Assembly: GCF_030408575.1 (NCBI RefSeq)
Contig: NZ_CP047047.1
Span: 1,227,991-1,291,990, forward strand
Length of the DNA stretch: 64,000 nt
Source of the DNA: Corynebacterium auris
GTDB lineage: Bacteria; Actinomycetota; Actinomycetes; Mycobacteriales; Mycobacteriaceae
Direction: 5' to 3'
In this document: positions 26,663 through 45,060 of the stretch, in pieces
Layout of the letters: the number at the start of each line of letters is the position of its first letter
Numbering within the stretch: position 1 is the stretch's first letter
Position numbers and translations under genes: made by a program
The notes under the pieces: model-generated
What the model saw: the letters and a program-made list of their open reading frames with translations, nothing else
Told to the model about the DNA's origin: nothing
Database searches by the model: none

Positions 26663-27252
26663 CGCTGCGAACTCGACAAGGGCCCGGGCCGCCTTGGGTC
26701 GTTGTCGAATGCGTTCGGTGTTGTGCCGCACGATGCGCTCGTCGATGGCTTGGTTGGGCTGCTGGAAGGGGGTTTTTCGTGACCTCCTTGGCGGGACACC
26801 GCGCCGGGATGAGGGCACCTTGATTGCATCCGCCCGGGTTCAGGCGTGCAAGCCGCAATCGCTTTAGCCAAAGAACCGGCGGTCAACGGTCAACACTGTC
26901 GGCGATCGAGCAGTCGAACAGATCCATCAGTACCCACCCTGAACTCGGTGGCGTTGGCTGCCGTTTCCGTGTAGTTGGTAGGGGCAATCCGCGTAGTTGG
27001 TAGGGGTTTTTCGGATAGGTGGTAGGGATCCGCTTTTTCGGTCGGGGGACACCCCCAATGCTTCTACGCCGCAAGCGGGCGCAATCAGTATCGGCGTCTG
27101 CCGTCACTAGATAGGCAGATGTATTGCGGAACTCTTAGGCGATAGAAGACGTGTGAGATGCAACGACGTCACCGCCCGGGAGCGGTGCCGTCGGATACGA
27201 TGAGATGACTGGCTTTGTGATCTTGTAGTCATGTCGAAGAGGAGGTCCAGAC
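26663..27252. other. 590-bp left border of the island, IS debris
   Basis: No intact gene was found. Short open frames on both strands have no recognisable family. The middle holds the three-repeat end of an IS21-type element (26959-27026). The region from there to about 27130 is probably the residue of that element; 26663-26958 is unassigned. Confidence 0.6.
26959..27026 (+). repeat. Terminal repeats of a lost IS21-family element
   Basis: GGTAGG occurs at 26977, 26999 and 27021, exactly 22 bp apart, in the context TTGGTAGGGG or GTGGTAGGG. A terminal TG lies at 26959, 17 bases before the first TGGTAG. The genuine IS21-type end at 28642 has the same layout (TG, 17 bases to TGGTAG, repeats at 22-bp intervals). 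The sequence differs from that element, so it is a different IS21 relative of which only one end remains. Confidence 0.6.
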
Positions 27253-28245
27253 GTGCAGGTCGAGAGCTTCAGCACGGACGACGTGGCCTTCTACCGCCGG
27301 ATCGAGTACTGGCAGGACGTTGTCACCGGGTCCTTCGCCCGCTGTGCAGTCCGCGTGAGCAACACCGACGAGACGTTCTACGGACGCATGGTCACCGGCC
27401 ACCTCGGACCGGTGACCTTCTCGCTCGCGGAGTACCAGGCCAGCAGCGGCTACGAGATCACTCGCACTTCCCGGCACGTCCGCCAAGAGGAGACTGACGA
27501 CTTCCTTCTCCAGCTGCACCTCGGCGGAGGGAAAATCGGGCTCACCCAGAACGACAGGGAGTCGACGATCGAGCGCCCGGGAGACTTTAGCGTACTCGAC
27601 GATTCCATCCCGTCGACCCTGTACTGCCCACCGGATTCCTCAGCTCGCGCCGTCACCGCGTCCATGCCCCGAAGCCTCCTCGTCGAGAAGGTACCGCATC
27701 TGCGCGACATCACCGCCCTCCACATCGATGGACAAACCGGCACAGGACAGCTCTTGTCGTCCATAGTGGTCGGCATCGCCTCCAACCTAGAGACTGGATA
27801 GCTCAGCGCCACGTCCTCCGCCCGTCTATCCAGCGCCTTCATCGATGTGCTCTCGGTCGCGCTTCTGGAAGCGCAAGGCAGCACAGAACGGCCGCCGGAA
27901 ACATATACAGCCGGGCTTCTGGAGTCGATCTACCGGTTCGTCGAGAAGAACCTCTCCCGTTCAGACCTGACCGTGCAACTCGTCGCCGATGCGCATCACA
28001 TCTCCCTGCGCTACCTCCACCGCCTGTTCGAGAAAGAGGACGCCTCGCTGGGCGAATGGATACGCAACCGCCGGCTTGACAGCGCGAGCCGGCAACTGAT
28101 CGATCCCGCCTATCGGCACATACCCGTAAGCAAGATCGGCGCGAACTGGGGCTTCCCCGACCCCAGCGCCTTCTCCCGAGCATTCCGCGCGCGTTTCGAA
28201 ATGCCACCCCGCGACTACCGGACAACCTTCCTCTCAGAGGATTGA
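27253..28245 (+). pseudogene. AraC-family transcriptional regulator with an in-frame amber codon
   Basis: One reading frame of 331 codons interrupted only by TAG at 27799-27801 (codon 183). The first part is the AraC-binding-like sensor domain (RIEYWQDVV, GHLGPVTFSLAEYQ, DDFLLQLHLGG, RPGDFSVLDDS). The second part is a complete AraC/XylS double HTH (LVADAHHISLRYLHRLFEKE, then SKIGANWGFPDPSAFSRAFRARF). GTG start with GGAGG 8-12 bases upstream. Such proteins often activate the adjacent cluster. The C-terminal half could perhaps be made alone from an internal start near 27847, giving a DNA-binding domain without its sensor. Confidence 0.88.
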
Positions 28246-28542
28246 TCCATCAGGCCCGTGCCATTCCTTTCGAGAGGAATCACACCTATCCGGTCCTCAA
28301 CATCACATGCTCATGAAGCACGATGATTGCAACGAGGTCGGTCGTGAACTGATCATGATCGCCCGATAAGGACCGGTGCCTGCATGCTCAATGAGCGCAG
28401 TACTCCTGATGTCAAGTCCCTGGCACATGATGACAAGCCGAAGGCTCCCCGCCGTTCGTAGAGTAAGGAACAAGCGGCACAAGGACCGCGGCAGACCCTG
28501 CCCGATCCCGCCGCGAGACCTCTGACACGGCAGGAGCACACC
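28246..28542. other. 297-bp presumed promoter region of the biosynthetic cluster
   Basis: No gene was found. There is a short imperfect hairpin (ATTCCTTT/AGAGGAAT) just after the regulator gene near 28260-28285 and a TAGAGT hexamer at 28459-28464, but no convincing -35/-10 pair. GGCAGGAG just before the papB start is a good ribosome binding site. Confidence 0.5.
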
Positions 28543-28735
28543 ATGGACACCAAAGCGACAGACCCGGACGTCATTCTCGGCGACCGACGCGATGAACTGG
28601 ACGCGCTCGACGCGCAGCTCCTGGACATCCTGCGTCGTCGCTGTTGCGACCGGCTATTTGGTAGCAGCGTCGTGACTTTCCGGTAGCGCTTCAGTGAGTA
28701 TCCGGTAGCAGCTCACAGCGCTCAAGGTGATACTT

Positions 28736-28774
28736 CCAGTACGAGCCGCACCACTCGGGTGCGGCTCGTACTGG
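28736..28774. promoter_or_regulatory. Strong hairpin in the istA leader
   Basis: CCAGTACGAGCCGCACC (28736-28752) pairs perfectly with 28758-28774, leaving a 5-base loop. It stands 13 bases before the istA start and covers the approach to its ribosome binding site (GGAAGGAG). It could block read-through or restrict translation of the transposase. Confidence 0.55.
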
Positions 28775-28835
28775 AAGGAGTCCGCTTATGACGGATTACC
28801 GTGCGGTGATGACGCTGCTGATTCGGCAGCGTTCT

Positions 28836-30276
28836 GAGGGTGTCAGGAAGTTTGTGTGTGAGGCTCTGATCCAGAAGGAGTTTCACTGATAATGACTACC
28901 GTGTCACCGAAGAAAGGCCATGACCCGAGCAGGGTCAACGAGATCAGCGCGAAGCTGATGGAAAACCCGGAAATCGCCGCACTGATCGGCGAGCTATCAA
29001 CCTCCGTCGACGATGCCAGCGACCTGGTCAAAGGTCTATTGCAAGCCTCGATCAACGCGGGTCTGCAGGCGGAGATGGACGCCCATTTGGGGTACGGGCA
29101 CTCAGATCGCGCGGCCAAAGCCCAGGTAAGCCCCTCAAACGGTGGCAATCACCGCAACGGGTCGTACACCAAAACTGTGGGCACCGGCTACGGCCCGGTG
29201 GACATCACAGTGCCTCGGGATAGAGCGGGCACGTTTCACCCGGTCATGGTGCCGAAAGGGGCACGCCGGCTGACAGAGCTCGATGACATGATCGTCTCGC
29301 TCTACGCCGGCGGAATGACGGTACGCGATATCCAGCACCACCTGGCATCGACCCTGGGGGTGGACATCAGCCCGGATACCATCAGTACCATCACCGATGC
29401 GGTCCTCGATGAGGTGATGGTGTGGCAAAACCGTCAGCTCGATGAGTTCTACCCGGTCATTTTCCTCGACGCGCTGCGGGTGAAAATCCGCGATGGTCAC
29501 CGGGTGGTCAATAAAGCCTGCTACATGGCTGTTGGCATCGACATCGACGGGACCAAACACATCCTGGGACTATGGATCGCCGACAATGAAGGGGCTGCAT
29601 TCTGGGCATCCGTGTGCGCGGACCTGGCGAACCGTGGAGTCAATGACGTGTTCATCGTCTGCTGCGACGGGCTCAAAGGCCTGCCTGAGGCCGTGGAAGC
29701 GACCTGGCCGAACTCGATGGTACAAACCTGCATCGTGCACCTGATCCGGGCCGCCAACAGGTGGGTGTCCTATAAGGACCGCAAATCTGTATCCAGCGCG
29801 CTGCGGCAGGTCTACACCGCACCGAACGAGGACGCCGCTTGCGCCGCCCTCGATGCCTTCGAAGCCTCGGAACTGGGGCGGAAGTACCCCCAGTCGGTGA
29901 AGGTCTGGCGTGATGCGTGGGAGAGGTTTATACCGTTTCTGCAGTTCCCGCCTGCAGCTCGCCGGGTGCTCTACACCACCAATGCCATCGAGTCGCTTAA
30001 CGCTGAGCTGCGGAAAGCGACCCGCAACCGTGGCCAATTCCCCACGGATGCTGCGGCGTTGAAGACGCTGTGGTTGATGGTCTGCAACATCGAGGACAAA
30101 CGCGCCGCCCAACGCGCGAAAAAAGCGAAGCGGGCAATCGACTGCAACGGCTATATTGAAGGGGCGAAAACCTCAGGGTGGAAACAAGCCATCAACCAAC
30201 TATCCGTGGCCTACCCAGACCGGTTCGCCAACTACTTGTAAACCAAGCCCCCGCACACAAACAAACGGACACTCTC
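28836..30276 (+). mobile_element. IS256-family insertion sequence, apparently complete
   Basis: 1441 bp. The imperfect terminal repeats begin GAGGGTGTC at 28836 and, on the other strand, GAGAGTGTC at 30276, and share the inner block GTTTGTGTG. The 9-bp direct repeat CAGCGTTCT flanks it (28827-28835 and 30277-30285). It carries one intact transposase gene. It inserted into codon 16-17 of istA of the older IS21-type element. Confidence 0.92.
28892..30241 (+). CDS. IS256-family (mutator-type) transposase
   Basis: 449 residues, no visible damage. The DDE triad is found in VIFLDALRVKIRDG, FIVCCDGLKGLPEA and TTNAIESLNAELRK; the family signature around CIVHLIRAANRWVSYKDRK is present. ATG 28892 has AGAAGGAG 12 bases upstream. 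Length and motifs are those of functional IS256 transposases. Confidence 0.95.
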   Translation: MTTVSPKKGHDPSRVNEISAKLMENPEIAALIGELSTSVDDASDLVKGLLQASINAGLQAEMDAHLGYGHSDRAAKAQVSPSNGGNHRNGSYTKTVGTGYGPVDITVPRDRAGTFHPVMVPKGARRLTELDDMIVSLYAGGMTVRDIQHHLASTLGVDISPDTISTITDAVLDEVMVWQNRQLDEFYPVIFLDALRVKIRDGHRVVNKACYMAVGIDIDGTKHILGLWIADNEGAAFWASVCADLANRGVNDVFIVCCDGLKGLPEAVEATWPNSMVQTCIVHLIRAANRWVSYKDRKSVSSALRQVYTAPNEDAACAALDAFEASELGRKYPQSVKVWRDAWERFIPFLQFPPAARRVLYTTNAIESLNAELRKATRNRGQFPTDAAALKTLWLMVCNIEDKRAAQRAKKAKRAIDCNGYIEGAKTSGWKQAINQLSVAYPDRFANYL

Positions 30277-30352
30277 CAGCGTTCTTACCGCCAGATTGAA
30301 CACCAGCTCGGATGCTCGCACCGCGCGGTTTCACGAGCGAACCAAATCCTCA

Positions 30353-30760
30353 GTTGGTAAAACCTACCTCGCCCAAGCACTCATCACCGCAGCATGCCGC
30401 AACGACTACTCCGCACGGTTCTACCGCACCGACATGCTCGCCGCCGAACTGGCAGTCCTCCGCCCCGATAACCCCACACGGCTGAAGTTCATCCAGCAAC
30501 TCCACGACGTCGATGTCCTAGTCCTGGATGACTTTCTCACCGCACCTGTTGATGCCGCGACCGCGCACCAGCTACTCAATATCCTCGCCGGGCGGGAACG
30601 CAAAGTCTCAACCGTTGTGACCTCACAGTTCACCCCACACGAGTGGTACAAGTCCATCCCCGACGCCGTGATCTCCGAGTCAATCCTCAACCGACTCGTC
30701 TCCGGCGCCGAAATCATCACACTCGAAGGACCAAACATGCGCCTGACCACCAACGCATAA
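30353..30760 (+). pseudogene. istB: istB remnant (IS21 ATP-binding helper), 5'-truncated
   Basis: The frame begins inside the Walker A motif (VGKTYLAQALITAAC) and continues through Walker B (DVDVLVLDDFLTAPVD) and sensor 1 (STVVTSQFTPHEWY) to the stop at 30758-30760. The N-terminal part, including the first Gly residues of the P-loop, is lost by the deletion that joined it to istA. Confidence 0.85.
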
Positions 30761-31101
30761 CAACCGGCAACGCCTGAGTGAGATACCGCTACCGGGTACT
30801 CACTCAGGCGCTACCAGATGCTCACCACACCGCTACCATTTCGGTCTTCTGAACAGTCGCATCGAGTGCTGCGTGAGTATCGCACAGCTCAAACGAGAGC
30901 ATGACATCCCCATGATGCAGCCAGGCCGGGTGGATGTCGTCCACCAGAGAGCCGAAGCCTTCGGCCAGGAGCACGGCATCAGCACGGAGTTCCTGCGCAG
31001 CCTCTACGAGGTGATCATCACCGAGACCTGCCGCGTCGAAGACCTCATCATCGATGAGGCTCCCGCGCCCAGCGACAGCGCTGCGTCGAGGTAGCACCCC
31101 G

Positions 31102-33183
31102 ATGAAAACCCTCCTGATCGACAACTTCGACTCGTTCACCTACAACCTCCGCGATCTCGCCCACCGCGTGTTCGGAACTGAACCAGTCGTCATCACCAAC
31201 GACGCCAACTGGGCCGACATCTCCCTCGACGACTTCGACGGCATCATCGTCTCACCCGGCCCGGGCCGCCCCCAACGGTCCGGGGACCTGGGAATCTCGC
31301 AGCAAGCTTTCGACCAGAACCGGTTGCCCGTGCTGGGCGTATGCCTCGGCCATCAGGCACTCTCATTCGCCTCGGGCGCGACCGTCGATCTGGCGCCCGA
31401 GCCCATGCACGGCAGGGTCACGAGCGTGCACCACTACGACACCGACCTCTTCCAAGGCGTGCCCCAAGGGTTCCGAGCGGTGTGCTACCACTCCCTGGCA
31501 GTCACCGACCTGCCCGCCGACGTCGAACCGACCGCGTGGACCCCGGACGGCGTAGTCATGGCGGTCCGGCACAAGACCCGACCGTACTGGGGCATCCAAT
31601 TCCACCCCGAGTCGGCGCTGACCGAGTGGGGCGAAGCGATGCTGATGAACTTCCAGACTCTCGTGCACACGCACCCACGAACCCCCACGACCGATCACCT
31701 CGCCCTCGTCCGGCATCCCCAGCACCACCGGCGTCTGCGCGTGGAATGGCAGCGAATCAACGGCGAACCCGACGCGCAACGCCTGTTCGAAAGCCTCTAC
31801 TCTGCTCGTGAGACCAGCTTCTGGCTCGATAGCTCGACCATGGATCCGGTCTCCAAACGCCTGACCATCATGGGCGATGCCACCGGACCGCTCGCCGAGA
31901 CCCTGCAGTACGACGTCACCGCCAGACAGTGGCGCGTTCGCGGCAACGACGGTGAACGAACCATCAACCAGGACTTCTATACCTACCTGCGAGCCCAGCT
32001 ACACCAGCGCGCAGTCCCTGCCGTCGAAGAACTTCCCTTCGACTTCAACCTCGGCTACGTCGGCGCTCTCGGCTACGAGCTCAAAGACGAGACCGTCGGA
32101 ACACCCGCCCATCGCTCACCCCACCCGGATGCGGCACTGATCTTCGCCGACCGCGCCATCGTCATCGACCATCGCGAGTGCTACACCTACCTGCTCACCC
32201 TCGTCGACGACAGCCAACCAACCACGCGGACGGCCGCCGCTGACTGGCTGTCACAGACATCTGCCACTGCCCGTGAAGCCGTCGCTAATGCTGACGACCG
32301 CCAGTCGGAGGCCGCGAACGTCCCGATCCTGAGGGAGCCGACCGCGCTCGAGTTCGAGCTCGACCAGAACCGTGCCTCCTACCTGGCGAGCATCCAGACG
32401 TGCCTGGAAAAGATCCGCGACGGCGAATCCTATGAGATCTGCCTGACGAACATGGCCGAAGCCGGACCGATCGCCGATGCGTATGCCGCCTACCGCGCGC
32501 TACGGCAGACGAGCCCGGTACCGTTCGGCGCCTTCCTGCGACTCGGGGACCTCGCCATCCTCAGCGCCTCACCCGAACGATTCCTCCGCGTCGGCGTCGA
32601 CCACCAGGTCGAAGCGAAACCCATCAAAGGCACCCGCCCCCGGGGAACCACCCCGGGTGATGACCAGGAACTGCGCAAAGACGTATCCACCAACGGGAAA
32701 GACCGCGCCGAAAACCTGATGATCGTCGACCTGCTCCGCAACGACCTCAACCGCGTCTGCACAGTCGGCAGCGTCCGCGCCGACGACATCTTCACCGTCG
32801 AGACCTTCTCCCACGTCCACCAACTCGTCAGCACCATCACCGGCACTCTGCGGCCGGAGCTAACCGCCGTGGACTGCGTGCAGGCCACCTTCCCCGGCGG
32901 CTCCATGAGCGGCGCACCCAAGATCCGCACGATGGAGATCATCAGCAGCCTCGAACACCGAGCACGCGGCTTCTACTCCGGAGCCATCGGCTGGTTCTCC
33001 CTCAGCGGCGCAGCCGACCTGAGCATCACCATCCGCACCCTCGTCTCCGATCACACCTCCACCACGTTCGGCGTCGGCGGAGCGATCGTCGCCCAATCGG
33101 ACCCCCTTGACGAATTCGAGGAAACCCTCGTGAAAGCCTGCGCCCTGCTCACCGCCCTCGAATCGAAAGTCACCAACGCATGA
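31102..33183 (+). CDS. papA: PapA-type 4-amino-4-deoxychorismate synthase (amidotransferase-synthase fusion)
   Basis: 693 residues. Residues 1-190 are a class I glutamine amidotransferase (nucleophile Cys81 in GVCLGHQ; YWGIQFHPES). Residues from about 240 to 690 are a chorismate-binding domain ending in SGAPKIRTMEII and FYSGAIGW. The motif PIKGTRPRG has Lys509, the nucleophile of aminodeoxychorismate synthases; anthranilate synthases have Ala there. It aminates chorismate to aminodeoxychorismate. ATG 31102 follows GAGG, 7 bp after the papB stop. With no PabC-type lyase nearby and papB/papC flanking, the product goes to p-aminophenylalanine rather than folate. Confidence 0.92.
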   Translation: MKTLLIDNFDSFTYNLRDLAHRVFGTEPVVITNDANWADISLDDFDGIIVSPGPGRPQRSGDLGISQQAFDQNRLPVLGVCLGHQALSFASGATVDLAPEPMHGRVTSVHHYDTDLFQGVPQGFRAVCYHSLAVTDLPADVEPTAWTPDGVVMAVRHKTRPYWGIQFHPESALTEWGEAMLMNFQTLVHTHPRTPTTDHLALVRHPQHHRRLRVEWQRINGEPDAQRLFESLYSARETSFWLDSSTMDPVSKRLTIMGDATGPLAETLQYDVTARQWRVRGNDGERTINQDFYTYLRAQLHQRAVPAVEELPFDFNLGYVGALGYELKDETVGTPAHRSPHPDAALIFADRAIVIDHRECYTYLLTLVDDSQPTTRTAAADWLSQTSATAREAVANADDRQSEAANVPILREPTALEFELDQNRASYLASIQTCLEKIRDGESYEICLTNMAEAGPIADAYAAYRALRQTSPVPFGAFLRLGDLAILSASPERFLRVGVDHQVEAKPIKGTRPRGTTPGDDQELRKDVSTNGKDRAENLMIVDLLRNDLNRVCTVGSVRADDIFTVETFSHVHQLVSTITGTLRPELTAVDCVQATFPGGSMSGAPKIRTMEIISSLEHRARGFYSGAIGWFSLSGAADLSITIRTLVSDHTSTTFGVGGAIVAQSDPLDEFEETLVKACALLTALESKVTNA

Positions 33184-34193
33184 GCACGACACCCACCCAG
33201 CCCTCATCGCGGTCGAAACAAGCCGTCATCGTCGGTTTCGGGCCCGTCGGCCAGATGATCGCGAGCATCCTCGCCCCACACGGCTGGCACATTCACGCCC
33301 TCGACACGCGACCGCGTGTCAGTTTCGACGGCGCCCAAGCCCTCAGCACTCTGGAGCAGTATCTCGAGGTCGACGCCCGCCAGCCGACTCCGGCCACCGC
33401 TGCGGCACTAACATCCTGCTCGCTGGTCGTCCTCGCTGTGCCCGAGGAGTCCGCCCTCGAGACACTGGAAGCACTCGCCCCGCTCCTGCCCGCTGACGCA
33501 CTCATCGTCGAGACGCTCTCCCGCAAGGACCGCCTCCGTGCCCACCTGGCAGCGGCGGTACCGGAGCACGCGATGCTGAGCATCAACCCGCTGTTCCATC
33601 CCGGGCTCGGACCCCGCGGCAATCGCATAGCCGTCGTCGACCCCGTCACGCATCCCACAGTCACCGACGTCGTGTCCTGCATCGAGGACGCCGGCGCCCG
33701 GGTGGTCTTTCTGAGTGCGCGCGAGCACGACAACGAGCTCGTCGCCGTTCAAGCCCTCACGCACAGTGCGCTCCTGGCGTTCGCGGCCAGCCTGCCGCAC
33801 ATCGTCGCCGACGTCGACCGCTGCCTGGAGTTCGCGCCCCCACCGACCCGCCTGCTGATGGCCCTGGCCGCACGCGTGGCATCGGGCTCACCCGAGACCT
33901 ACTGGGACATCCAAGGCGCAGCCCTCGGCCAGCCGCCGGCGCGCGACATTCTGGCCAACGCACTGGCTCGACTCGACGACGACCTCGCACAGGACTCGCC
34001 GGCATCGTTCGCCCAGTCCCTGGCGGAGAACCAGTCCTGGTTCAACACCCGCCTCGCCTCGCTCACCGACCTCGCTCAGACCGCCCTCGGCCACACCATC
34101 GACACGACCGCGCCGCGGCCGGCGGCCTCCGATGACCAGACCCCGGCCACACCATCTTCGAAGGAGAATCCCGATGTCCACGACGACCACTAA
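33180..34193 (+). CDS. papC: PapC-type 4-amino-4-deoxyprephenate dehydrogenase
   Basis: 337 residues of the prephenate dehydrogenase family. NAD site VIVGFGPVGQMIASILAPHG (residues about 16-35); the catalytic-site region INPLFHPGLGPRG and the C-terminal helical domain (ALTHSALLAFAASLP) are present. It would oxidatively decarboxylate aminodeoxyprephenate to p-aminophenylpyruvate. The start overlaps the papA stop as ATGA. No dedicated aminotransferase follows, so the last amination may use a housekeeping enzyme. The last residues are Pro/Asp rich and overlap the next gene by 20 bp. Confidence 0.88.
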   Translation: MSTTPTQPSSRSKQAVIVGFGPVGQMIASILAPHGWHIHALDTRPRVSFDGAQALSTLEQYLEVDARQPTPATAAALTSCSLVVLAVPEESALETLEALAPLLPADALIVETLSRKDRLRAHLAAAVPEHAMLSINPLFHPGLGPRGNRIAVVDPVTHPTVTDVVSCIEDAGARVVFLSAREHDNELVAVQALTHSALLAFAASLPHIVADVDRCLEFAPPPTRLLMALAARVASGSPETYWDIQGAALGQPPARDILANALARLDDDLAQDSPASFAQSLAENQSWFNTRLASLTDLAQTALGHTIDTTAPRPAASDDQTPATPSSKENPDVHDDH

Positions 34194-35409: not shown

Positions 35410-35427
35410 CTCACCAGGAGAGCCCCC

Positions 35428-37740
35428 ATGACCACACAGACATTCGACGCCATCGTCGTCGGAAACGGAGCCATCGGCAGCTCCCTCGCCGTCGAACTCG
35501 CCGACCGCGGCCTCACCGTCGCGCTGATCGGCCCCGAGAACCGGCAGTACGCGGCATCGACCGCCGCCGGTGCCATGCTCGGCTGCTTCGGTGAGGTCAC
35601 CGCCGACCTCATCAGCGACGATCCAGGACGGACGAAGTTCGCCCTCGACCTGAAAGCCAAAGAGCTCTGGCCCGACTGGGTCGAGAAGATCTCCGACCAC
35701 TCACCCCTGGATGGCACCGACCTGTTCACCGCCTCGGGCACCACGGTCATCCTCAACACCGTCGGTACCCGCGAGATCGACACCGAGAACTTCTCCGCCA
35801 TCCAGAAGACCCTGCAGGAGAACAAGGAGCCCTTCGACACCGTCGACGTCGACGACATCGGCTGGGTCGACGCCGACCCGAACTCCCGTCCGCTCGAAGC
35901 GATCCACATCCCCAGCGAGCACGCCGTCGACTCCGGCCGTCTCCTGGCACGCCTCGAAGGCGCCGCCGCCGCCCGCGGCTGCACCCTCATCCACGAACGG
36001 GCCGTGAGCCTGCGCGAAGATCAAGGCTGCATCCGCGCCGTGGTCCTAGACAACGGGGACGTGATCGAAGCTGGCCAGGTCGTGCTCGCCGCCGGTGTGG
36101 GCTCCCAGGCGCTCATCGACTTCGTCCCCGGGCTCGGCGCCACCATCCCGCGCCTAGTCGCCGGCTACGGGGTCTCCGCAGTGATGACCACCCATGACGG
36201 CACCCAGCCCCAATCCGTGATCCGGACCCCGAACCGCGCGTTCGCTTGCGGCCTCCATGTCGTCCCGCGAGGCCTGGGGCAGGTCTACGTCGGCGCGACC
36301 AACATCATTAACCCGTCCGTAATGACCGAACCCGTCCTGCGCGATCTGGAGTTCGTCCTCGGATGCGCACACCGTCAGATCCGACGGAACCTCTGGTCGA
36401 GCAGTGTGCGGCGCATCAACGTTGGCAACCGGCCTGTCTCCCTCGACGGGTTCCCCCTGCTGGGCGAGACCCCGGTCCAGGGTCTGTGGATGACCACCGG
36501 CACCTACCGCGACGGCCTGTTCCTGTCGCCGCTGATCGCCCAGGAATTCGCCGACCGCCTCACCGGTGGCAGCGGCGAAGCGGACCTGTCGCTGTTCACC
36601 CCCGAACGTGCCCCGGTCCGGCGGGCCGGCGGCCGGCCCCGCATCATCGACACCACCGTCCAGCACATGCTCGCCACCGGCTACGAGCACCATTGGACGA
36701 TCCCCACCGACTGGCAGGAATACCTCGAAGCCGACCTCCAGCCGATCTACCAGAACTGGGCCGATCAGATCGACGACGACTTCACGCCACCGCCCGAACT
36801 GGTCGCCTCCTCACGCCTGCACCCGCAAATGGTGCAGTGGCTGCGCGACTACTACGACGCCACCCGCGAGAAGTTCGGCGCACCGGATCGGGCACCGGCC
36901 CCCACCCGGGCAGAACTCACCCGGAACGCGACGCGGCAGCTGCACACGGCGAACGTTCCCACCCCCGCCGCCGACGCCCAGGTGCTGGCCGAGCACACCT
37001 TCGGCACCACCGACGACACAACGGCACCGGATACGGCCGAACGCGAGCAGTTCCTTAACCTCGTGGCGAGGCGCAGCAACCGGGAGCCCCTGGAGTACCT
37101 GACCGGGCGCGTCCACGTTCTCGGACTCGATCTCACCGTCCGCCCGGGCGTGTTCATCCCCCGAGTGCACTCCGAGGCCATGGTGACCGCCGCGATCGAG
37201 AACCTCTCCACGCCCACGCCGACGGTCGTCGATCTGTGCACCGGCACCGGAGCCATCGCCCTGGCGGTCGCGACCCGGCTGCCCCAGGCACGCGTGATCG
37301 GAGCCGACGTGGCCGAATCCGCCGTGGCATGCGCCCAAGAGAACGCCGACCGTCTGGAGAGCGTCGATGCCGGACGGGTCGAGTTCCTCCAGGCCGACAT
37401 AGGCAACGAGAGCTTCGCCGATGACCTGACCGGCACGACGGATCTCGTCACCGCGAACCCGCCCTATGTGCCCACGGACCTGCACATACCCAGCGAATGG
37501 GCGGTCTACCAGCCCAAGACGGCGCTGTACTCGGGCGCGGACGGCCTCGACCTCACCCGTCTCGTGGCACGCACCGCGCACCGGCTCCTGCGACCGGGAG
37601 GCACGTTCGCCCTCGAGCACTACGACGCAGCCCTCGACGAGATCCTCACGATCCTCACCGACGTCGGCTTCGGGCAGATCACCAGTCACCGGGACCATGA
37701 CAAACTTCCGCGATTCATCCTCGCGGTCAAGGAGAGTTGA
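35428..37740 (+). CDS. Fusion of a FAD-dependent amine oxidase and an NPPY-type N-methyltransferase
   Basis: 770 residues in one uninterrupted frame. Residues 1-400 are a DAO/glycine oxidase-like flavoprotein: GNGAIG at about 12-17, STAAGAMLG, VLAAGVGSQAL, and C-terminal GNRPVSLDGFPLLGETP. After a linker of about 100 residues, residues 500-770 resemble PrmC/HemK: EPLEYLTGRVHVLG, SAM motif I DLCTGTGAIALA (from Asp602) and NPPY at 677-680. NPPY enzymes methylate planar nitrogens such as Gln amides or adenine amines, so the aromatic amine of PAPA is a chemically fitting target. ATG 35428 with CAGGAG upstream. Natural fusion is supported by the lack of any stop or internal ribosome binding site I could find. 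Confidence 0.82.
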   Translation: MTTQTFDAIVVGNGAIGSSLAVELADRGLTVALIGPENRQYAASTAAGAMLGCFGEVTADLISDDPGRTKFALDLKAKELWPDWVEKISDHSPLDGTDLFTASGTTVILNTVGTREIDTENFSAIQKTLQENKEPFDTVDVDDIGWVDADPNSRPLEAIHIPSEHAVDSGRLLARLEGAAAARGCTLIHERAVSLREDQGCIRAVVLDNGDVIEAGQVVLAAGVGSQALIDFVPGLGATIPRLVAGYGVSAVMTTHDGTQPQSVIRTPNRAFACGLHVVPRGLGQVYVGATNIINPSVMTEPVLRDLEFVLGCAHRQIRRNLWSSSVRRINVGNRPVSLDGFPLLGETPVQGLWMTTGTYRDGLFLSPLIAQEFADRLTGGSGEADLSLFTPERAPVRRAGGRPRIIDTTVQHMLATGYEHHWTIPTDWQEYLEADLQPIYQNWADQIDDDFTPPPELVASSRLHPQMVQWLRDYYDATREKFGAPDRAPAPTRAELTRNATRQLHTANVPTPAADAQVLAEHTFGTTDDTTAPDTAEREQFLNLVARRSNREPLEYLTGRVHVLGLDLTVRPGVFIPRVHSEAMVTAAIENLSTPTPTVVDLCTGTGAIALAVATRLPQARVIGADVAESAVACAQENADRLESVDAGRVEFLQADIGNESFADDLTGTTDLVTANPPYVPTDLHIPSEWAVYQPKTALYSGADGLDLTRLVARTAHRLLRPGGTFALEHYDAALDEILTILTDVGFGQITSHRDHDKLPRFILAVKES

Positions 37741-40700
37741 TGGACGCACTCAACAGCCGACGAGGATTCGTCCAGGGCGGCGTCGCCGTCGCGGCCACCG
37801 CCGCCCTGCTCGAACCCGGCACCTTCGCACCCCGCGCGCACGCCGGCGGGGCGGGCACCACCGTCAGCACGGCCACGAACATCACGCTGAGCACGCATCC
37901 CGGCAGCGACGTCACGATCATCGACGTCGGCAATGTGCTGTGGCGCTTGCCCGCCGGAGGCGGGCAAGCGTGCCGCCTCACCGACGATGTCGAAGACGCC
38001 ACCTGGCCGAGCCTGACCCCGAACGGGCGCACCGTCGTGTTCCAGTCATTCCGGCACGGCACCTACGATCTGTGCGCCCTCGACCTGCACACCGGCGCCG
38101 TCACCCGTCTGACCGCGGGTACCGAGGACGACCAGGACCCGCACGTCTCGCCCCACGGCAAGGACATCGTGTTCATCTCCGACGCCGGAGGCACCAGTGC
38201 CGTGTGTCGTATCGGCGTGCGAGGCGGAGACCGGCATGTCCTCATCGGGACCGACGACCAACGGTCCTACCACTCACCGCGGTGGCATCCCGACGGCAAG
38301 CACATCGTCTATGTCGCCGACGACACTCACATCGAACAGCTCCACATCACGACCGGCAGCACGAAAACACTGCGCACGGTCGAGGAGGGCCCTACCATCC
38401 GGGGACTGTCGTACTCGCCATCGGGCAAGTTGATCTACGTCGTCTCGCACACCCCGCAGGCGTGGCTCGAACACGACGGGCAACGCCTCACTGACCCCGA
38501 GGACGAAGAGCCCGCACCGCTGCCGGCGGCGTGGCTATCGGACACGGAGTTCATGTATTCCACCAGCGGGGAGATCCGCCGGCGCACGCTCAATGGAACA
38601 AGCACGTCTGCCGTGCCGTTCGAGGTCGCTCTGTCGGCGGCGGCCGCCCCTGCGGCGATCAAGCCGCGCCTGGATCTGGAGGCGCATGGTCCCGCACTCG
38701 GGCTGACCGGGGCGGCGCTGTCCCCGGACGGTGACCGGATCTGTTTCCGCGCGCTCAACGCCTTATGGCTGACCGATGCCTCCGGCGACACCAGCGTGGT
38801 CGTAGACGACGGCTACTTCAACGCCGATCCCACCTGGGAACCCGACGGGGCCGCGATCATCTACACCAGCGACCGCAAAGGAATCGTCAACTTGTGGCGC
38901 CACGTCCTTGCCGACGGCACGGACACGCAGCTGACATTCGAGAAGAACGGTGCGCTCCTACCATCGGTGTCACCGGACGGCGCGTCGGTGGTGTTCCACG
39001 ATGAAGCCGGCGGCACGCATCGGCTCGAGCTCGCCTCCGGCACGGTCACCGAACTGCTGACCGGGCACGAGACACCGGGAAAGGCGACGTGGTCGCCTGA
39101 CTCTCAGAAGATCGCGATGGCCGTGCACCAGCTGGCCTCGCCACGCTCGGACAGCGGCCTCAACGAGATGCTCGTCCTCGACCTCGCCAGCGGTGAGACG
39201 TTCACCCAACCATTCTCACCGGGTCTGTCGATCGCGACACGCAACCACGACGGCCCCGTCTGGGCTGCCGATGGCACCGCTCTCTACGCGGTCTGCGAAA
39301 GCAGGCTGCACCGCGTCCCAGTCGACCAGTCCGGACGGACCACTGCCGAGGCCACCGTCGCCTCCGACGCGATCGCCGACGGGGTCACCAGCTCCGCATC
39401 GGGAGAGGTCGCGTTCCTGTCTTTGGGCACGTTCCATCTGCTCACCGCCTCTGCCGACGTACGGCCGTCCCTCGATTACACCCGGCAGGCACGACCCGAG
39501 CGGTTCACGCTGCGCGCCGGACGACTCTGGAACGGGGTGGACGAGGACTACCAGCGCAACGTCGACGTCACGATTGAGGACGGCACGATCACCAATATCC
39601 GGCCTGCCGACGAGTCCCGGATGGCAGATCTCGACGCCTCGCCGTACACGCTGATCCCGGGGTTGATCGACATGCACAACCACTGGCACATGCGAGGCCG
39701 GGCCTGGGGAAACCGGCAAGGCCGCCTCTGGCTGGCCTACGGGGTGACCACCAGCCGCTCGGCCGGCGACCTCGCCTACGAAGCACGCGAGACACGCGAA
39801 GCCACCCACGCCGGCACCGGCATCGGTCCGCGGTTCCTCAACAACGGCGAGCCTCTCGACGGCAACCGGTACTCGTTCGGGTTCATGCGGTGCGTGACTT
39901 CGGCTGAGCAGGTCGACCGGGAGATCGAACGCATCCTCGCCCTCGGCTACAGCTGCGTGAAGTCCTACCAGCGCCTCCCCGTCACCCTCGAGCGCCGACT
40001 CGTCGACGGGCTCGCCGCCCATGGGATTCCCGTGATCTCCCACTACGTCTACCCCGCAGTCGCCTCGGGTCTGCACGGCATGGAGCACACCGGCGGCGGG
40101 AACCGGCTCGGCTATTCCCGCACCCTCAGCGCCGCGAAAGGACTCACCGCGGCCGACACCGTGTCCCTGCTCTCGGGCGGAGACTTCTGGGTGTCATCGA
40201 CTCTGCTGTTCGCAGCGGAAGTCCACGCCGACTCCCGCGACCTCGTTGACGATGAACGCACCCGGGTGCTCTACCCCTGGTGGGACTACCGCCGCCTCCA
40301 GGACAAGGCCGATCAAGCTGCCACGGACCCCGACCCCATCAACCTGGCATGGACCCGCGGCGACGTGGACCTGTTGCGGTCGGTGAACGAAGCCGGCGGC
40401 CTCGTGGTGCTCGGTACCGATGCCCCCTTGGACGACCTCGGCGTCAGCATTCACACCAATCTCCGGGCCCTCGTCCGCCACGGCTTCACCCCGGTGGACG
40501 CACTGCGCACCGGAATGGTCAACGCGGCCAAAGCCCTCGGAGCCAGCGAACTCCTCGGACAACTCACCGTCGGGGCACATGCCGACATGCTCATCATTGA
40601 CGGCGACCCCCTGGCCGATATCGCCGATACCGCCAGGATTCGCGACGTGTTCGTCGACGGCCACCGGCACCGAATCTCGGACCTGCTCGACCCCTACCGC

Positions 40701-40772
40701 GACCCGTCGGACGCCACCGGCAGCGTCGCACTGACCATGACCGCACACACGTGCTGCAGAAGGAGAAAGTAA
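37740..40772 (+). CDS. Tat-exported beta-propeller amidohydrolase
   Basis: 1010 residues from ATG 37740, which overlaps the previous stop (TGATG) and has AAGGAG just upstream. The N-terminus NSRRGFVQGG followed by a hydrophobic stretch and AHA is a twin-arginine signal. Residues about 60-600 are TolB/WD40-like repeats (ATWPSLTPNGRTVVFQS, YHSPRWHPDGKHIVYV, DPTWEPDGAAIIYTSD). The C-terminal 380 residues are an imidazolonepropionase-like amidohydrolase: LIPGLIDMHNHWHMRG, SHYVYPA, GTDAPLDDLG and GAHADMLIIDGDPL. This folded exoenzyme probably hydrolyses an amide, lactam or similar bond outside the membrane, for example to mature or activate the exported product. Confidence 0.82.
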   Translation: MDALNSRRGFVQGGVAVAATAALLEPGTFAPRAHAGGAGTTVSTATNITLSTHPGSDVTIIDVGNVLWRLPAGGGQACRLTDDVEDATWPSLTPNGRTVVFQSFRHGTYDLCALDLHTGAVTRLTAGTEDDQDPHVSPHGKDIVFISDAGGTSAVCRIGVRGGDRHVLIGTDDQRSYHSPRWHPDGKHIVYVADDTHIEQLHITTGSTKTLRTVEEGPTIRGLSYSPSGKLIYVVSHTPQAWLEHDGQRLTDPEDEEPAPLPAAWLSDTEFMYSTSGEIRRRTLNGTSTSAVPFEVALSAAAAPAAIKPRLDLEAHGPALGLTGAALSPDGDRICFRALNALWLTDASGDTSVVVDDGYFNADPTWEPDGAAIIYTSDRKGIVNLWRHVLADGTDTQLTFEKNGALLPSVSPDGASVVFHDEAGGTHRLELASGTVTELLTGHETPGKATWSPDSQKIAMAVHQLASPRSDSGLNEMLVLDLASGETFTQPFSPGLSIATRNHDGPVWAADGTALYAVCESRLHRVPVDQSGRTTAEATVASDAIADGVTSSASGEVAFLSLGTFHLLTASADVRPSLDYTRQARPERFTLRAGRLWNGVDEDYQRNVDVTIEDGTITNIRPADESRMADLDASPYTLIPGLIDMHNHWHMRGRAWGNRQGRLWLAYGVTTSRSAGDLAYEARETREATHAGTGIGPRFLNNGEPLDGNRYSFGFMRCVTSAEQVDREIERILALGYSCVKSYQRLPVTLERRLVDGLAAHGIPVISHYVYPAVASGLHGMEHTGGGNRLGYSRTLSAAKGLTAADTVSLLSGGDFWVSSTLLFAAEVHADSRDLVDDERTRVLYPWWDYRRLQDKADQAATDPDPINLAWTRGDVDLLRSVNEAGGLVVLGTDAPLDDLGVSIHTNLRALVRHGFTPVDALRTGMVNAAKALGASELLGQLTVGAHADMLIIDGDPLADIADTARIRDVFVDGHRHRISDLLDPYRDPSDATGSVALTMTAHTCCRRRK

Positions 40773-41335
40773 TGTTCCACCTCGATCAGCCCATCACTAC
40801 CTCCCGCCTGATCATCAGACCATTCACACCCGCAGACGAAGACGACATGTTCGACTTCGAATCCCGCGACGACGTCGCGAGGTACCTCTTCAACGAGCCC
40901 CGCACGCGCGCGGACAACGCCGACGAACTGGCCAAGCGGGTGACCCAGACCAAACTCGAAAACGACGGGGACACCCTCCTGCTGGCCGTCGACTATAACG
41001 GCACCGTCATCGGCTACGTGCTGCTGACGCTGCTGAGCCGGGACAACTCCCAGGGCGAGTTCGGATATGTCTTCCACCCCGAATACCAGGGCAAAGGACT
41101 CGCCTCGGAAGCGGCCGTCGAAATGCTCCGACTGGGATTCGAGACCCTGAACCTGCACCGCATCATCGGGCGATGCGACCCGAGAAACGACGCCTCCGCC
41201 CGGCTCATGGAACGACTCGGGCTGCGCAAGGAAGCTCACTTCCGCGAGCTGGAGATCTTCAAGGGCGAATGGGGTGACGAGTTCACCTTCGCCATGCTCA
41301 AGAAGGAATGGGACCAAAGAAAGCACACCGGATGA
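40772..41335 (+). CDS. GNAT acetyltransferase, RimJ/RimL type
   Basis: 187 residues. Starts TTSRLIIRPFTPADEDDMF, acetyl-CoA pyrophosphate loop HPEYQGKGLASEA, and the C-terminal NDASARLMERLGLRKEA. Start overlaps the preceding stop by one base (TAATG) with AGAAGGAG upstream. In a biosynthetic cluster it may acylate the amine of the product or of an intermediate, for tailoring or self-protection; that is inferred from context. Confidence 0.85.
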   Translation: MFHLDQPITTSRLIIRPFTPADEDDMFDFESRDDVARYLFNEPRTRADNADELAKRVTQTKLENDGDTLLLAVDYNGTVIGYVLLTLLSRDNSQGEFGYVFHPEYQGKGLASEAAVEMLRLGFETLNLHRIIGRCDPRNDASARLMERLGLRKEAHFRELEIFKGEWGDEFTFAMLKKEWDQRKHTG

Positions 41336-42780
41336 CTCACGACAACGGCAACACCCGACCCGGAACCTTCGACGCCGGCACCCCCGCTCCCGCGGATACC
41401 CGCACCCAGCGAGGCCGATGGATCGTCCTCACCGCCGTTTCCCTCGGCCTCCTGCTGGCCACGATTGACACCTCGATCCTCTACATCGCCGTCCCCGTGC
41501 TCGAGGACGCTCTGGGGGCGAGCACCAGCGAGTCCCTGTGGATCATCAACATGTACCCGCTGGTCATGACCGGCCTGCTCCTGGGCACCGGCACCCTCGG
41601 AGACCGCTACGGCCACAAACGAGTGTTCCTCCTCGGGATCGCCCTGTTCGGGCTGGCCTCGCTCATCGCGGCGTTCTCACCGACACCGGGCATCCTCATC
41701 TTCTCCCGCGCCCTGCTCGCCATCGGCGCAGCCCTCATGCTCCCGGCAACCCTGGCGATCATCCGCATCACCTTTGACGACGAACGCGAACGCAACATCG
41801 CCATCGCAGTCTGGTCGAGCGTGTCGATCGGTGGAATCGCTTTCGGGCCCCTCGTCGGCGGGCTCCTGCTCGAGTGGTTCTGGTGGGGGTCGGTGTTCCT
41901 GATCAACGTGCCGATCGTGATCGTGACGTTCATCCTCACCGCGATCTTCGCCCCGAAAGCCGCCGAAGAATCAGCCGTCCCGTGGGACCTGGTCTCCTCC
42001 ATCTGGGCGCTCATGGGCCTGACAGGGCTCGTCGCCGCGATCAAGGAAATCGCCTCCACCTCGCCGTCCGCGACGATCACCGGGATCTCGCTGGTCGCCG
42101 CCCTGGTCGGCTTCGCGCTGTTCGTGACCCGACAGCGCCGACTGGACACGCCGCTGCTGGACTTCACGATCTTCCGCAACGCCGCCGTGTCCGCCGGTGT
42201 CCTCGCCGCCGGGCTAAGCACCTTCGTCTTTGCCGGCATCGGGGCAGTGACCTCGCTCTATTTCCAGGCCACCGCCGGGTACACGCCCCTCCAGGCCGGG
42301 CTGCTCGTAGGCTGCATCGCCGTCGGCGCGACGATCACCTCCCTGGCCAGCGGTTCGCTCCTGACCCGCATCGGGCCACGAGCGCTGCTGCTGGTCGCGG
42401 CCGTCCTGGCCGGTCTCGGATACGGCCTGGCCACACTCACCCTCAACGCCCACATCACCTGGCTGGGACTGAGCCTGTTCGTCGCCGGCACAGGCATCGG
42501 CGTGCTGATCACCGTCGCGTCCTCGACGATCATCACCAACGTCGCCCCCGAACGCGCAGGCATGGCCTCCGCCGTCGAGGAAGTCTCCTACGAATTCGGC
42601 AGCCTCCTCTCGGTGACCGTGCTCGGCAGCATCTACACCACCATCACCGCGCTCTCGACATCCGGCACCGACGGTTACCGCGCCGTGCTCCTGATCGTCA
42701 TCGGAGCGTGCGCCGCCGCCCTGGCTGGACTGGCCGTGCTCCTGCGCAAGACGCCCACGCTGAACGCCGCACCCCACTAA
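41332..42780 (+). CDS. MFS exporter, DHA2 (14-helix) type
   Basis: 482 residues with about 14 hydrophobic segments. Motif A is seen as LGDRYGHKRVF and motif C-like sequence in the fifth helix (GIAFGPLVGGLLLEWFWWGSVFLINVPI), as in EmrB/QacA drug exporters. The ATG overlaps the GNAT stop (ATGA), so it is part of the cluster operon. Probable export of, and resistance to, the cluster product. Confidence 0.9.
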   Translation: MTHDNGNTRPGTFDAGTPAPADTRTQRGRWIVLTAVSLGLLLATIDTSILYIAVPVLEDALGASTSESLWIINMYPLVMTGLLLGTGTLGDRYGHKRVFLLGIALFGLASLIAAFSPTPGILIFSRALLAIGAALMLPATLAIIRITFDDERERNIAIAVWSSVSIGGIAFGPLVGGLLLEWFWWGSVFLINVPIVIVTFILTAIFAPKAAEESAVPWDLVSSIWALMGLTGLVAAIKEIASTSPSATITGISLVAALVGFALFVTRQRRLDTPLLDFTIFRNAAVSAGVLAAGLSTFVFAGIGAVTSLYFQATAGYTPLQAGLLVGCIAVGATITSLASGSLLTRIGPRALLLVAAVLAGLGYGLATLTLNAHITWLGLSLFVAGTGIGVLITVASSTIITNVAPERAGMASAVEEVSYEFGSLLSVTVLGSIYTTITALSTSGTDGYRAVLLIVIGACAAALAGLAVLLRKTPTLNAAPH

Positions 42781-42861
42781 GCGATCACGAGCGGTGAGGA
42801 GCACCACACTCGGGGCTCCCCACCCCCCGACCGCGATACCGCCTGAGAAGAAGGACAAACC

Positions 42862-44049
42862 ATGACGCTACGACTTTTCACGTCGGAAGCGGTGACCGAC
42901 GGCCGCCCCGACAAGATTTGCGACCAGATCAGCGACAACATCCTTGACACACTCATCACTCAAGACGCCCACTCCCGCACCGCCGTGGAAACGCTCGTCA
43001 CTACCGGTTTGGTCCATGTCGCCCGGGAAATCCGCACCAGCGGATACGCCGACATCGCCGCCATCGCCCGCCGCGTCATCAACGGCATCGGCTACACCTC
43101 CAGCGAGATGGGTTTCGACGGCGACCCCTGTGGCGTGACCGTGTCGATCGGGGAACAGTCTCCCGAGATCGGCGACGGCGTCAGCAGCTCCGAAGAATCC
43201 CGCAACGGCACGGCCTCCCCTCTCCACGACCAGCAGGGTGCAGGAGACCATGGCCTCATGTTCGGCTACGCCACGAACGAGACCCCCGAACTGATGCCTC
43301 TAGCGATCCGGACTGCCCACCGATTGGCCGAGCGTCTCACGACAGCGCCAAAGTCAGGCCAGTTGCCGTTCCGGCGACCTGACGGCAAGACCCAGGTCAC
43401 GCTCGGCTACGACAGGGCTACGCCCCGCGCCGTCGACACCGTCGTCGTCTCCACCCAACATCACCCCGACATGACGCAGGACCAGCTTCGTGACGCTCTC
43501 GACGATGCCGTCATCCGCCCCGTCGTCGAGGAGACCGGGCTGGACCTCTCGGGCATGAAATTGCTTGTGAATCCCTCCGGCAGCTTCGTCATGGGTGACC
43601 CGAAGGCCGACGCAGGGTTGACCGGACGCAAGATCATCATCGACACCTACGGGGGCGCAGCACGGCACGGCGGCGGCGCCTTCAGCGGGAAGGACCCGTC
43701 CAAGGTCGACCGGTCCGCAGCATACGCGATGCGATGGGTGGCGAAGAACATCGTCGCCGCAGACCTCGCCGAACGCGCCGAGGTCCAGGTCGCCTACGCC
43801 ATCGGCAAAGCCAACCCCGTCGGCCTCTACGTCGAAATGTTCGGGACCGGCACCGTCGAGGACCAGGCGATCGCGCGTGCTGTCCGGGAGGTCTTCGACC
43901 TACGCCCCGGAGCCATCATCCGCGATCTTGAGTTGCTGCGCCCGATCTACGCCCAGACCGCCGCCTACGGGCACTTCGGCCGGGAGCTTCCCGAGTTCAC
44001 CTGGGAGCGCACCGACCGCGCCGACGACCTGCGCATCGCCGTCCTGTAG
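42862..44049 (+). CDS. S-adenosylmethionine synthetase paralogue with altered active site
   Basis: 395 residues, full-length MetK fold: [62 protein letters not shown]. The N-terminal motif normally GHPDKI reads DGRPDKI, with Arg15 (CGC) where the catalytic His (CAC or CAT) should be. Other substrate-binding motifs look intact. It would supply SAM to the methyltransferase of the cluster, but the substitution may abolish or change its activity. The 5' region after the MFS gene is about 80 bp; GAGAAGAAGGA precedes the ATG. The housekeeping metK of this window (62783 onwards) keeps the His. Confidence 0.9.
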
Positions 44050-44074
44050 GCGAACGACCACCGAAGGAGATGTC

Positions 44075-44160
44075 ATGAAGCGATTCGACGGACGCACCGT
44101 CGTCATCACCGGCGCGAGGGAGGCATCGGCACCGCCACCGCCCGCCGCCTGCGCTCACGC
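44075..44160 (+). pseudogene. Truncated short-chain dehydrogenase (SDR) gene
   Basis: ATG 44075 with GAAGGAG upstream encodes MKRFDGRTVVITGAR; a one-base loss near 44120 then shifts the Rossmann motif GGIGTATARRLR into another frame. SDR similarity ends at about 44160, where IS-derived sequence begins. Only the NAD(P)-binding start remains. It was probably the last tailoring gene of the cluster. Confidence 0.75.
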
Positions 44161-44173
44161 TTGCTGCTAGCAC

Positions 44174-44345
44174 TATGGCTCAGCGCTGCGGCGGATCTTG
44201 GCCCGAAGACCCGTTTCGCGCATGAGGTGGAAGACGGGCTCGGGGTTGACCACTCGGCCCTGTTTCCGCAAGTCACCGCAGGATTCGCCGGTGGCCGTAG
44301 AGATGCTTGTCGCACTCGACGCTTTCCTGGATTGCTTCTTTAAGG
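44174..44345 (-). pseudogene. IS3-family orfB fragment
   Basis: Read on the minus strand, in two frames, it gives DKHLYGHRRILR and GRVVNPEPVFHLMRETGLRAKIRR. This matches the conserved segment before the integrase core in IS3 OrfB (YGYRRIT...VNHKRVxRLMRExGLxAKIRR). There is an in-frame stop and a frameshift. It marks the right border of the island. Confidence 0.7.
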
Positions 44346-44752
44346 GCAGCGTCCTAGTCCGGTTCGTGGAGCCGTTTCTCGTGGTAGGAGCATGTCGACT
44401 GGGGGCGTGCCCGCCGCGTCCACGCGGTCCTCCGGGCGGTGCCGCGACATGGGGATGACGCTCGCCTGGCTATCTAGGCGCGTCCATGATTCTTCACGTC
44501 CCGCAACATTCTTGGGTACGCGTTTTCCGCTTCCCGGCGGCGCAGCGCCCCCCTCCGTGAGCACCTTCGGTTTTCACGCGTCATCTCCACTTCTGCGCCC
44601 CGCGCGAGAGTCCGACCCTGCTCGCACTGATGCCGAATGAGAGAACCGTGCTCACAACGAAAAATGCTCCCCACTAGCCGGTACCCGATTCCTCAGTCCA
44701 GCGAATGGGGAGCGTTTCACCCTACGGGCCCACAGCCTTCACGCTGTGAGTC
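44346..44752. other. 400-bp right border, no gene
   Basis: No coding region was recognised. Probably IS-derived and island-edge sequence. It ends with the secG terminator and a small perfect hairpin (CACAGC 44731-44736 with GCTGTG 44743-44748) just beyond the secG stop. Confidence 0.5.
44658..44713 (-). terminator. Candidate terminator downstream of secG
   Basis: On the minus strand GCTCCCCA (44713-44706) pairs with TGGGGAGC (44673-44666), followed by ATTTTT. The loop is long (32 bases). It would end the whole gap-pgk-tpiA-secG transcription unit. Confidence 0.55.
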
Positions 44753-44989
44753 CTACAGGGCGAAGGACTGCGCGACGTTCAGGCCGATGATGCAGGTGAC
44801 CCAGATCAGTGCGATAACGACGGTGTAGCGGTCCAGGTTCTTCTCCACAATCGTCGAACCGGACAAGTTGGACTGCACTCCGCCACCGAAGAGGCTCGAC
44901 AGGCCGCCGCCCTTGCCCTTGTGCAGGAGGACAAAGATGGACATCAGAATCGACGCGATGACCAGGACGATCTCAAGGGCCAGAACCAT
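44753..44989 (-). CDS. secG: Preprotein translocase subunit SecG
   Basis: 78 residues with two membrane segments (EIVLVIASILMSIFVLL and VVIALIWVTCIIGL) flanking the conserved loop KGKGGGLSSLFGG. SecG is the small accessory subunit of the SecYEG channel. ATG 44989 is chosen because family proteins start at MVLALE-like sequence. In C. glutamicum ppc lies between tpi and secG; here the gap is only 71 bp. Confidence 0.95.
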   Translation of the reverse strand: MVLALEIVLVIASILMSIFVLLHKGKGGGLSSLFGGGVQSNLSGSTIVEKNLDRYTVVIALIWVTCIIGLNVAQSFAL

Positions 44990-45060
44990 GCGGTGCTTCT
45001 CTCCACTTTCCTCGGGGATGTAACCGTGCTTATCGTACACTACCGCCCGCACCGGGCGGG

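Follow-up and report, generated by a model that had tools for sequence, protein, structure and literature searches.

In the biosynthesis of pristinamycin, chloramphenicol and obafluorin, PapA, PapB and PapC lead from chorismate to p-aminophenylalanine (PAPA), and steps of nonribosomal peptide synthetases (NRPS) come afterwards. According to the accessible parts of two reports, the papABCDEF genes of Pseudomonas fluorescens SBW25 make the pyrazine DMBAP by a pathway that combines PAPA with an alpha-oxoamine synthase (AOS) (PMC9700740, PMC9814548). For Orf1, the N-formimidoyl/iminoacetyl synthase of the streptothricin-like antibiotic BD-12, the accessible text describes the transfer of a glycine-derived group to an amine via an N-O-S (NOS) adduct of C281; C281 and E426 are needed for the transfer and R342 for glycine oxidation, and all three are essential (PMC10156733). 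In this study we analysed a stretch of 64,000 nucleotides from Corynebacterium auris (contig NZ_CP047047.1, positions 1,227,991 to 1,291,990; hereafter the window), in which an insertion between pgl and tpiA carries an operon for PapA- and PapC-type proteins, an AOS and a fusion of a flavin adenine dinucleotide (FAD)-dependent domain with a methyltransferase (MT). The FAD half is probably an Orf1-type N-formimidoyl/iminoacetyl synthase using glycine, and we lean towards the view that the cluster makes a small secreted amidine from PAPA by way of PapABC, the AOS, the fused formimidoyl/methyl enzyme, export and deprotection.

The operon of eight consecutive genes on the + strand (31102-44049) consists of the following features.

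31102..33183, + strand: papA, 4-amino-4-deoxychorismate (ADC) synthase, a GATase fused to a PabB-like domain (domain profiles)
33180..34193, + strand: papC, prephenate-dehydrogenase-like, predicted 4-amino-4-deoxyprephenate dehydrogenase (profiles, synteny)
34177..35409, + strand: AOS of the BioF/Kbl type, reading frame open from 34132 (profiles; PAPA-cluster clade in the tree)
35428..36876, + strand: FAD half of the fusion, putative Orf1-type N-formimidoyl/iminoacetyl synthase domain (structure-database match, catalytic residues)
36883..37740, + strand: MT half of the fusion, of the HemK/PrmC type and carrying PrmC_N and NPPY (profiles)
37737..40772, + strand: Tat-exported TolB-like propeller with a metal-dependent amidohydrolase (profiles, metal-ligand pattern)
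40751..41335, + strand: GNAT acetyltransferase of the RimJ/RimL type (profiles)
41308..42780, + strand: DHA2-like MFS exporter (profiles)
42862..44049, + strand: second MetK, an S-adenosylmethionine (SAM) synthetase (profiles)

The initial annotation had described these genes as lying on one strand with overlapping or nearly touching junctions, and both the profiles, which identify the fusion as one of FAD/DAO and HemK/PrmC parts, and the coordinates of the open reading frames (ORFs) bear this out. The overlaps amount to 4 bp at papA/papC and at fusion/amidohydrolase, 22 bp at amidohydrolase/GNAT and 28 bp at GNAT/MFS, papC and the AOS gene overlap as well, and the gaps are 18 bp from the AOS gene to the fusion and about 80 bp from the MFS gene to MetK. 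PapA exceeds the cut-offs of PF00117 and PF00425 and thus has the GATase-PabB fusion of an ADC synthase, the AOS exceeds that of NF005697, and the exporter that of PF07690 while staying below that of TIGR00711. The frame of papC is open; its call rests on NCBIfam similarity and synteny, because the Pfam scores are slightly below the gathering cut-offs.

The window shares the PapABC route with the pristinamycin, chloramphenicol and obafluorin systems, whereas, as the initial annotation had also reported, no NRPS or polyketide synthase (PKS) model matched the window genes scanned, which cover a part of its ORFs. That annotation had concluded that the product class fits no PAPA pathway known to it, and it missed the DMBAP pathway. 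As in SBW25, PAPA synthesis would be followed by an amino-acid C-acetyltransferase-type step, and the window enzyme belongs to the AOS family; in contrast, the accessible text mentions no methyltransferase, amidohydrolase, GNAT or MetK for SBW25 (PMC9700740, PMC9814548). No cluster of the SBW25 PapDEF type appeared among the matches listed for plasmids and genomes. In the literature searched, mostly outside subscription journals, we found no description of PAPA combined with formimidoyl transfer, nor with an AOS beyond DMBAP. Thus PAPA together with an AOS is already known, and what appears to be undescribed in that literature is the combination with a predicted Orf1-type formimidoyl synthase.

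The assignment of the FAD half is based on a search of solved structures, in which entries for N-formimidoyl fortimicin A synthase ranked first (PDB 7xqa, E 1.8e-125). The alignment with 7xqa holds an FACGLH stretch that fits the C281/H284 numbering of Orf1 with an offset of 21 (accessible text of PMC10156733), and, judging by its title, numbering and residues, 7xqa would be Orf1 itself. The FAD half resembles Orf1 and the fortimicin-dactimicin enzyme Fsm14 (45% identity over 461 residues, with the catalytic and NOS residues kept) and differs from them in being fused to a HemK-type MT, in lying in a PAPA cluster without aminoglycoside genes and in a changed acceptor site. The NOS cysteine C281, the glycine-binding R342 and E426 are all present in the window (Orf1 numbering). 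Among 22 sequences, the window and 21 relatives, C281, H284, Y294, T298, R342 and R368 are kept in every one, H419 and E426 in 21 (the exception being locus L005) and F316 in 13. The single ThiO control has gaps at 279-281 and at 419/426 and keeps R342. Relative to ThiO, Orf1 is described as having about 100 additional C-terminal residues (PMC10156733, accessible text); this extension is present here, as the window alignment reaches chain residue 492 of 512. The 7xqa match led us to drop the idea that this domain is a plain amino-acid oxidase or a sarcosine oxidase. The initial annotation had proposed that PAPA is N-methylated and perhaps condensed to an aminoketone and oxidised by the FAD enzyme. 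The first two steps are supported, while the oxidation is probably the wrong chemistry, because the domain relates to Orf1-type synthases and keeps their special cysteine. Only the window island and its relatives gave matches along the whole fusion, and the FAD part alone was found in 8 others among 397 genomes of the order (E 1e-60) and in 1 other among 396 of the phylum (E 1e-100).

When genome contigs were scanned with the AOS, four loci came up: one in Kocuria atrinae (92% at best), two in Streptomyces (58%) and one distant locus (28%). In Kocuria, where the fusion lies at L017:6796-9108, the order is identical from the regulator to MetK, with 75-92% protein identity; in this draft papC, AOS and MFS each match in two frames and a contig end falls within MetK. 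The Streptomyces loci L018 and L019 carry papB-papA-papC-AOS-fusion-amidohydrolase-GNAT in this order at 38-64% identity and have no second MetK. The gene-cluster comparison that the initial annotation had proposed thus shows the pathway to be conserved outside the island. Among 392 Streptomyces genomes, an AOS at E 1e-50 or better turned up in eight, and in six of them its identity is 51-59%; of these six, four occur with papBAC (L018's genome, L046, L048 and L049), and the other two, L050 and L051, are accompanied by the same amidohydrolase and by type III PKS-like genes. The AOSs of the PAPA clusters form one clade of seven rows (support 98/99), outside which L050 and L051 fall. The latter two have an AOS at 51-52% identity, the same propeller-amidohydrolase family and type III PKS-like genes, and no pap genes.

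We also ranked papA places in Streptomyces by likeness to the window papA and recorded their neighbours at E 1e-5 in 20-kb stretches, reading 44 of the 48 top-ranked places (G777, G1003, G984 and G998 were skipped, and lower places were left); L019 and L054 lie outside this sample. Eighteen of the 44 places have both papB and papC, and among these an AOS occurs in 4, an MT in 5, an FAD gene in 4, a GNAT in 3 and an amidohydrolase in 2. The other 26 hold one FAD gene (L086) and neither an AOS nor an MT. One locus of the genus, L049 (2846-18621), has two papA-type genes. In L067 (4418-13998), papBAC, FAD and MT genes are accompanied by an ATP-grasp amino acid ligase and a class II DAHP synthase. 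In two distant genomes (L054:8880-15119 and L086:6034-10969), the FAD gene adjoins MFS, AMP-ligase and ADC-synthase genes.

From the gene families, their order, the catalytic residues and the relatives, all read from sequence, we infer the substrates, the order of the steps, the acceptor nitrogen and the protective role described below. PapA, PapB and PapC would convert chorismate to PAPA, and the AOS would condense PAPA with an acyl-CoA to an alpha-aminoketone with loss of CO2. The FAD half would oxidise glycine and pass a fragment via the cysteine NOS adduct to an amine, giving an N-formimidoyl (or iminoacetyl) group, after which the HemK-type half would methylate a nitrogen adjoining the new group with SAM from the dedicated MetK. 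If the aryl amine were the acceptor, the result would be an N-aryl-N'-methylformamidine. Inside the cell, the GNAT would acetylate a remaining amine; the product would then be exported by the MFS protein, and the Tat-exported amidohydrolase would remove the acyl group outside.

As the acceptor nitrogen we favour the aryl amine, because a para-amino aromatic is the common denominator of the FAD-gene loci. Two observations count for it: L067 has papBAC with FAD and MT genes and no AOS in 20 kb, and L054 and L086 combine the FAD gene with neighbouring ADC-synthase and AMP-ligase genes and gave no papB or papC matches. L054 and L086 share the acceptor-site letters V310, R312, D313 and D434 with the window.

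The same loci bear on a different route, in which the alpha-amine of the aminoketone is formimidoylated and the amidine closes on the ketone to a 4-(4-aminobenzyl)-imidazole that the HemK-type half N-methylates. In that case the AOS and the formimidoyl synthase would act together to form the ring, the amino acid giving the C-N unit and the ketone carbon and glycine giving the C2 carbon and, as a formamidine, the second nitrogen; alpha-aminoketones with a formamidine are known to close to imidazoles in organic chemistry. This would be a new enzymatic route to imidazoles, and the products of the cluster family would be N-methylated 4-(aminobenzyl)imidazoles. Consistent with this, the AOS and FAD genes are adjacent in the window, Kocuria, L018 and L019 and both present in L048 and L049, and Orf1 acts on aliphatic amines (PMC10156733, accessible text). 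However, L067 with its FAD and MT genes has no AOS in 20 kb, and neither has L054 or L086 with their ADC-synthase genes, and we consider imidazole formation unlikely. Somewhat less likely still is a DMBAP-like pyrazine, for which two aminoketones would form a dihydropyrazine to be oxidised by the FAD half, with the MT methylating the anilines. SBW25 is described as using PAPA, a C-acetyltransferase, spontaneous condensation and a dihydropyrazine oxidase (PMC9700740, accessible text), whereas the FAD half of the window groups with the Orf1 family, keeping the NOS cysteine and the glycine-binding arginine, and the FAD and MT pair occurs in L067 without an AOS.

The proposed protection of the product concerns the GNAT and the amidohydrolase, which occur together in the window, two other corynebacteria, Kocuria, L018, L019 and L046. 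The amidohydrolase starts with a twin-arginine motif (SRRGF), and its C-terminal domain weakly matches the arginine carboxypeptidase Cc2672, prolidases, and molinate and phenylurea hydrolases. H647, H649, K742, H769, H784 and D895 are invariant in six of six amidohydrolases, a set that matches the HxH, Lys, His, His, Asp arrangement, which we take to be the metal-ligand pattern of metal-dependent amidohydrolases. A Cys-Cys pair near the C-terminus (window 40750-40769) is also aligned in all six, L051 having CLC with a gap. Of the earlier proposal that the product is exported and then cut by this enzyme, the Tat start and the metal-ligand pattern are seen, and the cleavage stays plausible. Self-protection of the puromycin type works by acetylation, export and deacetylation. 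Like that scheme, the operon includes a single acetyltransferase, a single exporter and a single secreted hydrolase, and the GNAT and amidohydrolase may protect and deprotect the product; unlike it, the hydrolase is a propeller with an amidohydrolase, and not all relatives have it paired with a GNAT.

Several observations weigh against the amidine pathway as proposed. Within the Orf1 acceptor-site set (R306, S310, E312, E313, T423, E434, W435 and M438), the corresponding window letters are M, V, R, D, T, D, W and Y, so that only T423 and W435 are kept; therefore the acceptor would differ from that of BD-12 and is not readable from the sequence, although these residues would set the acceptor and not the chemistry. 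L054 additionally carries aminosugar-type genes (an epimerase and a DegT aminotransferase), so the acceptor could be a sugar amine, which weakens the argument for the aryl amine. L046 has papBAC, AOS, MT and amidohydrolase genes and no FAD gene within 20 kb, and the FAD step would therefore be dispensable in some members. The DMBAP oxidase is described as following the same AOS step (PMC9700740, accessible text), which offers an alternative role for the FAD half. Finally, the amidohydrolase is missing from L048, which has no GNAT either, and from L049, and in L050 and L051 it is present where pap genes and a GNAT are not; this incomplete co-occurrence weakens the protect-and-deprotect pairing. 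If the formimidoyl reading is true, NOS-bridge formimidoyl transfer, so far described for aminoglycoside-type antibiotics, would extend to PAPA-derived amines in an enzyme fused to an MT. A recently described enzyme chemistry would then be linked to a new product class, recognisable by a carbon from glycine that sits on an aniline or within an imidazole.

The MT half scores 200.7 against the PrmC cut-off of 199.1, with PrmC_N and NPPY present. The genome has another PrmC above the cut-off (961421-962098) and another MetK, so the MT half and the second MetK are extra copies and therefore fit SAM-dependent tailoring. The housekeeping metK lies at window 62804-63770, with 72% DNA identity to the second MetK of G404 and G606, the two other corynebacterial genomes with the cluster. 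For PapM as a relative of the MT half, no text was found in the literature searched, and no pristinamycin-type cluster was recognised among the loci read.

The surroundings of the operon differ from the initial annotation: the papB-type gene, listed there with papA and papC, is not intact and is split by a nested insertion sequence (IS), and upstream lies an AraC-type regulator that the annotation had left unmentioned.

26663..45060, no strand: insertion between pgl and tpiA (DNA matches, flank families, spacing in relatives)
25859-26662, + strand: pgl, left flank of the insertion
45061-45843, - strand: tpiA, right flank of the insertion
27253..28245, + strand: AraC-type regulator with an in-frame stop in this strain (translation; relative in Kocuria)
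28498..28641, + strand: papB 5' part, 4-amino-4-deoxychorismate mutase type (DNA matches to relatives)
28642..30855, + strand: nested IS splitting papB (IS256-family transposase 28892-30241; IS21-type IstB remnant 30296-30760)
30856..31094, + strand: papB 3' part (similarity, synteny)

The nested IS measures 2.2 kb, with a flanking duplication of about 5 bp at the junction. It is placed as an insertion within papB because window 27057-28641 and 30856-44159, which have 97-98% DNA identity to G404, are contiguous in G404 and G606. A pattern search for IS ends gave no matches; inside the IS, a 5-nt loop separates the arms of a perfect 20-nt inverted repeat (window 28733-28777). The intact pair of PapB and PapC is thus lacking in the window, whereas papB is uninterrupted in G404, G606, Kocuria and L019. 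The AraC-type regulator is about 90% identical to that upstream of papB in Kocuria and has a single in-frame stop in the window. The damage to papB and to the regulator probably leaves the pathway silent in this strain and, going by these interruptions, the window copy is probably dead; the copy noticed first is the wrong one to study, and better copies are those named among the relatives.

Two of the three corynebacterial copies are interrupted by an IS, the window in papB and G606 in the AOS gene, which an IS256-like element splits. In the third, G404, full-length open frames are seen for nine of the ten genes, the exception being MetK2, whose frame ends about 15 residues early. Together with the finding that just 3 of the 242 Corynebacterium genomes have the AOS at 98% identity or higher (the present one and the split AOS of G606 included), these lesions could be taken to mean that the island is a decayed, functionless remnant merely passing through the genus and being lost. 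We find this doubtful, more so than either ring-forming alternative, since G404 keeps its genes mostly open and the Streptomyces relatives at 38-64% identity keep theirs, which indicates that the pathway is maintained elsewhere. Moreover, a remnant would concern the strain and not the pathway, and is compatible with the amidine explanation.

The insertion of 18 kb separates pgl and tpiA, which lie 18.4 kb apart in the window. In eight of eight corynebacterial relatives (8 of 12 other Corynebacterium genomes with a pgl match) the two genes are convergent and 0.4-0.6 kb apart. G606 shares this insertion site. Neither flank gene was found in the stretches of G404 that were read, so its cassette would lie elsewhere in the genome; L122, L123 and L031 contain no flank genes. 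The cluster appears to be horizontally spread, moving between Corynebacterium, Kocuria and Streptomyces.

Relatives of single genes occur in other contexts. On the plasmids H1-H3 and H13, which carry relatives of the FAD gene, no pap genes of this type adjoin it; L004 has an anthranilate-synthase-family gene with weak similarity to papA. On a linear plasmid of Streptomyces finlayi (L003:9751-24605), an Orf1-type FAD gene (53%) lies in an NRPS cluster that also holds RidA, a truncated haemoglobin and a flavoprotein. AOSs of the same broad family (35-38% identity) were seen at L063:5937-8275, L065:833-3171, L066:5799-8140 and L064:7004-8245. In Enterobacter the AOS gene adjoins asnB instead of an MFS gene, and on E. 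coli and Klebsiella plasmids the AOS and an MFS transporter form a two-gene module, once on a 6.7-kb mobilizable plasmid and once beside an aromatic amino acid transporter, which is possibly a minimal aminoketone system.

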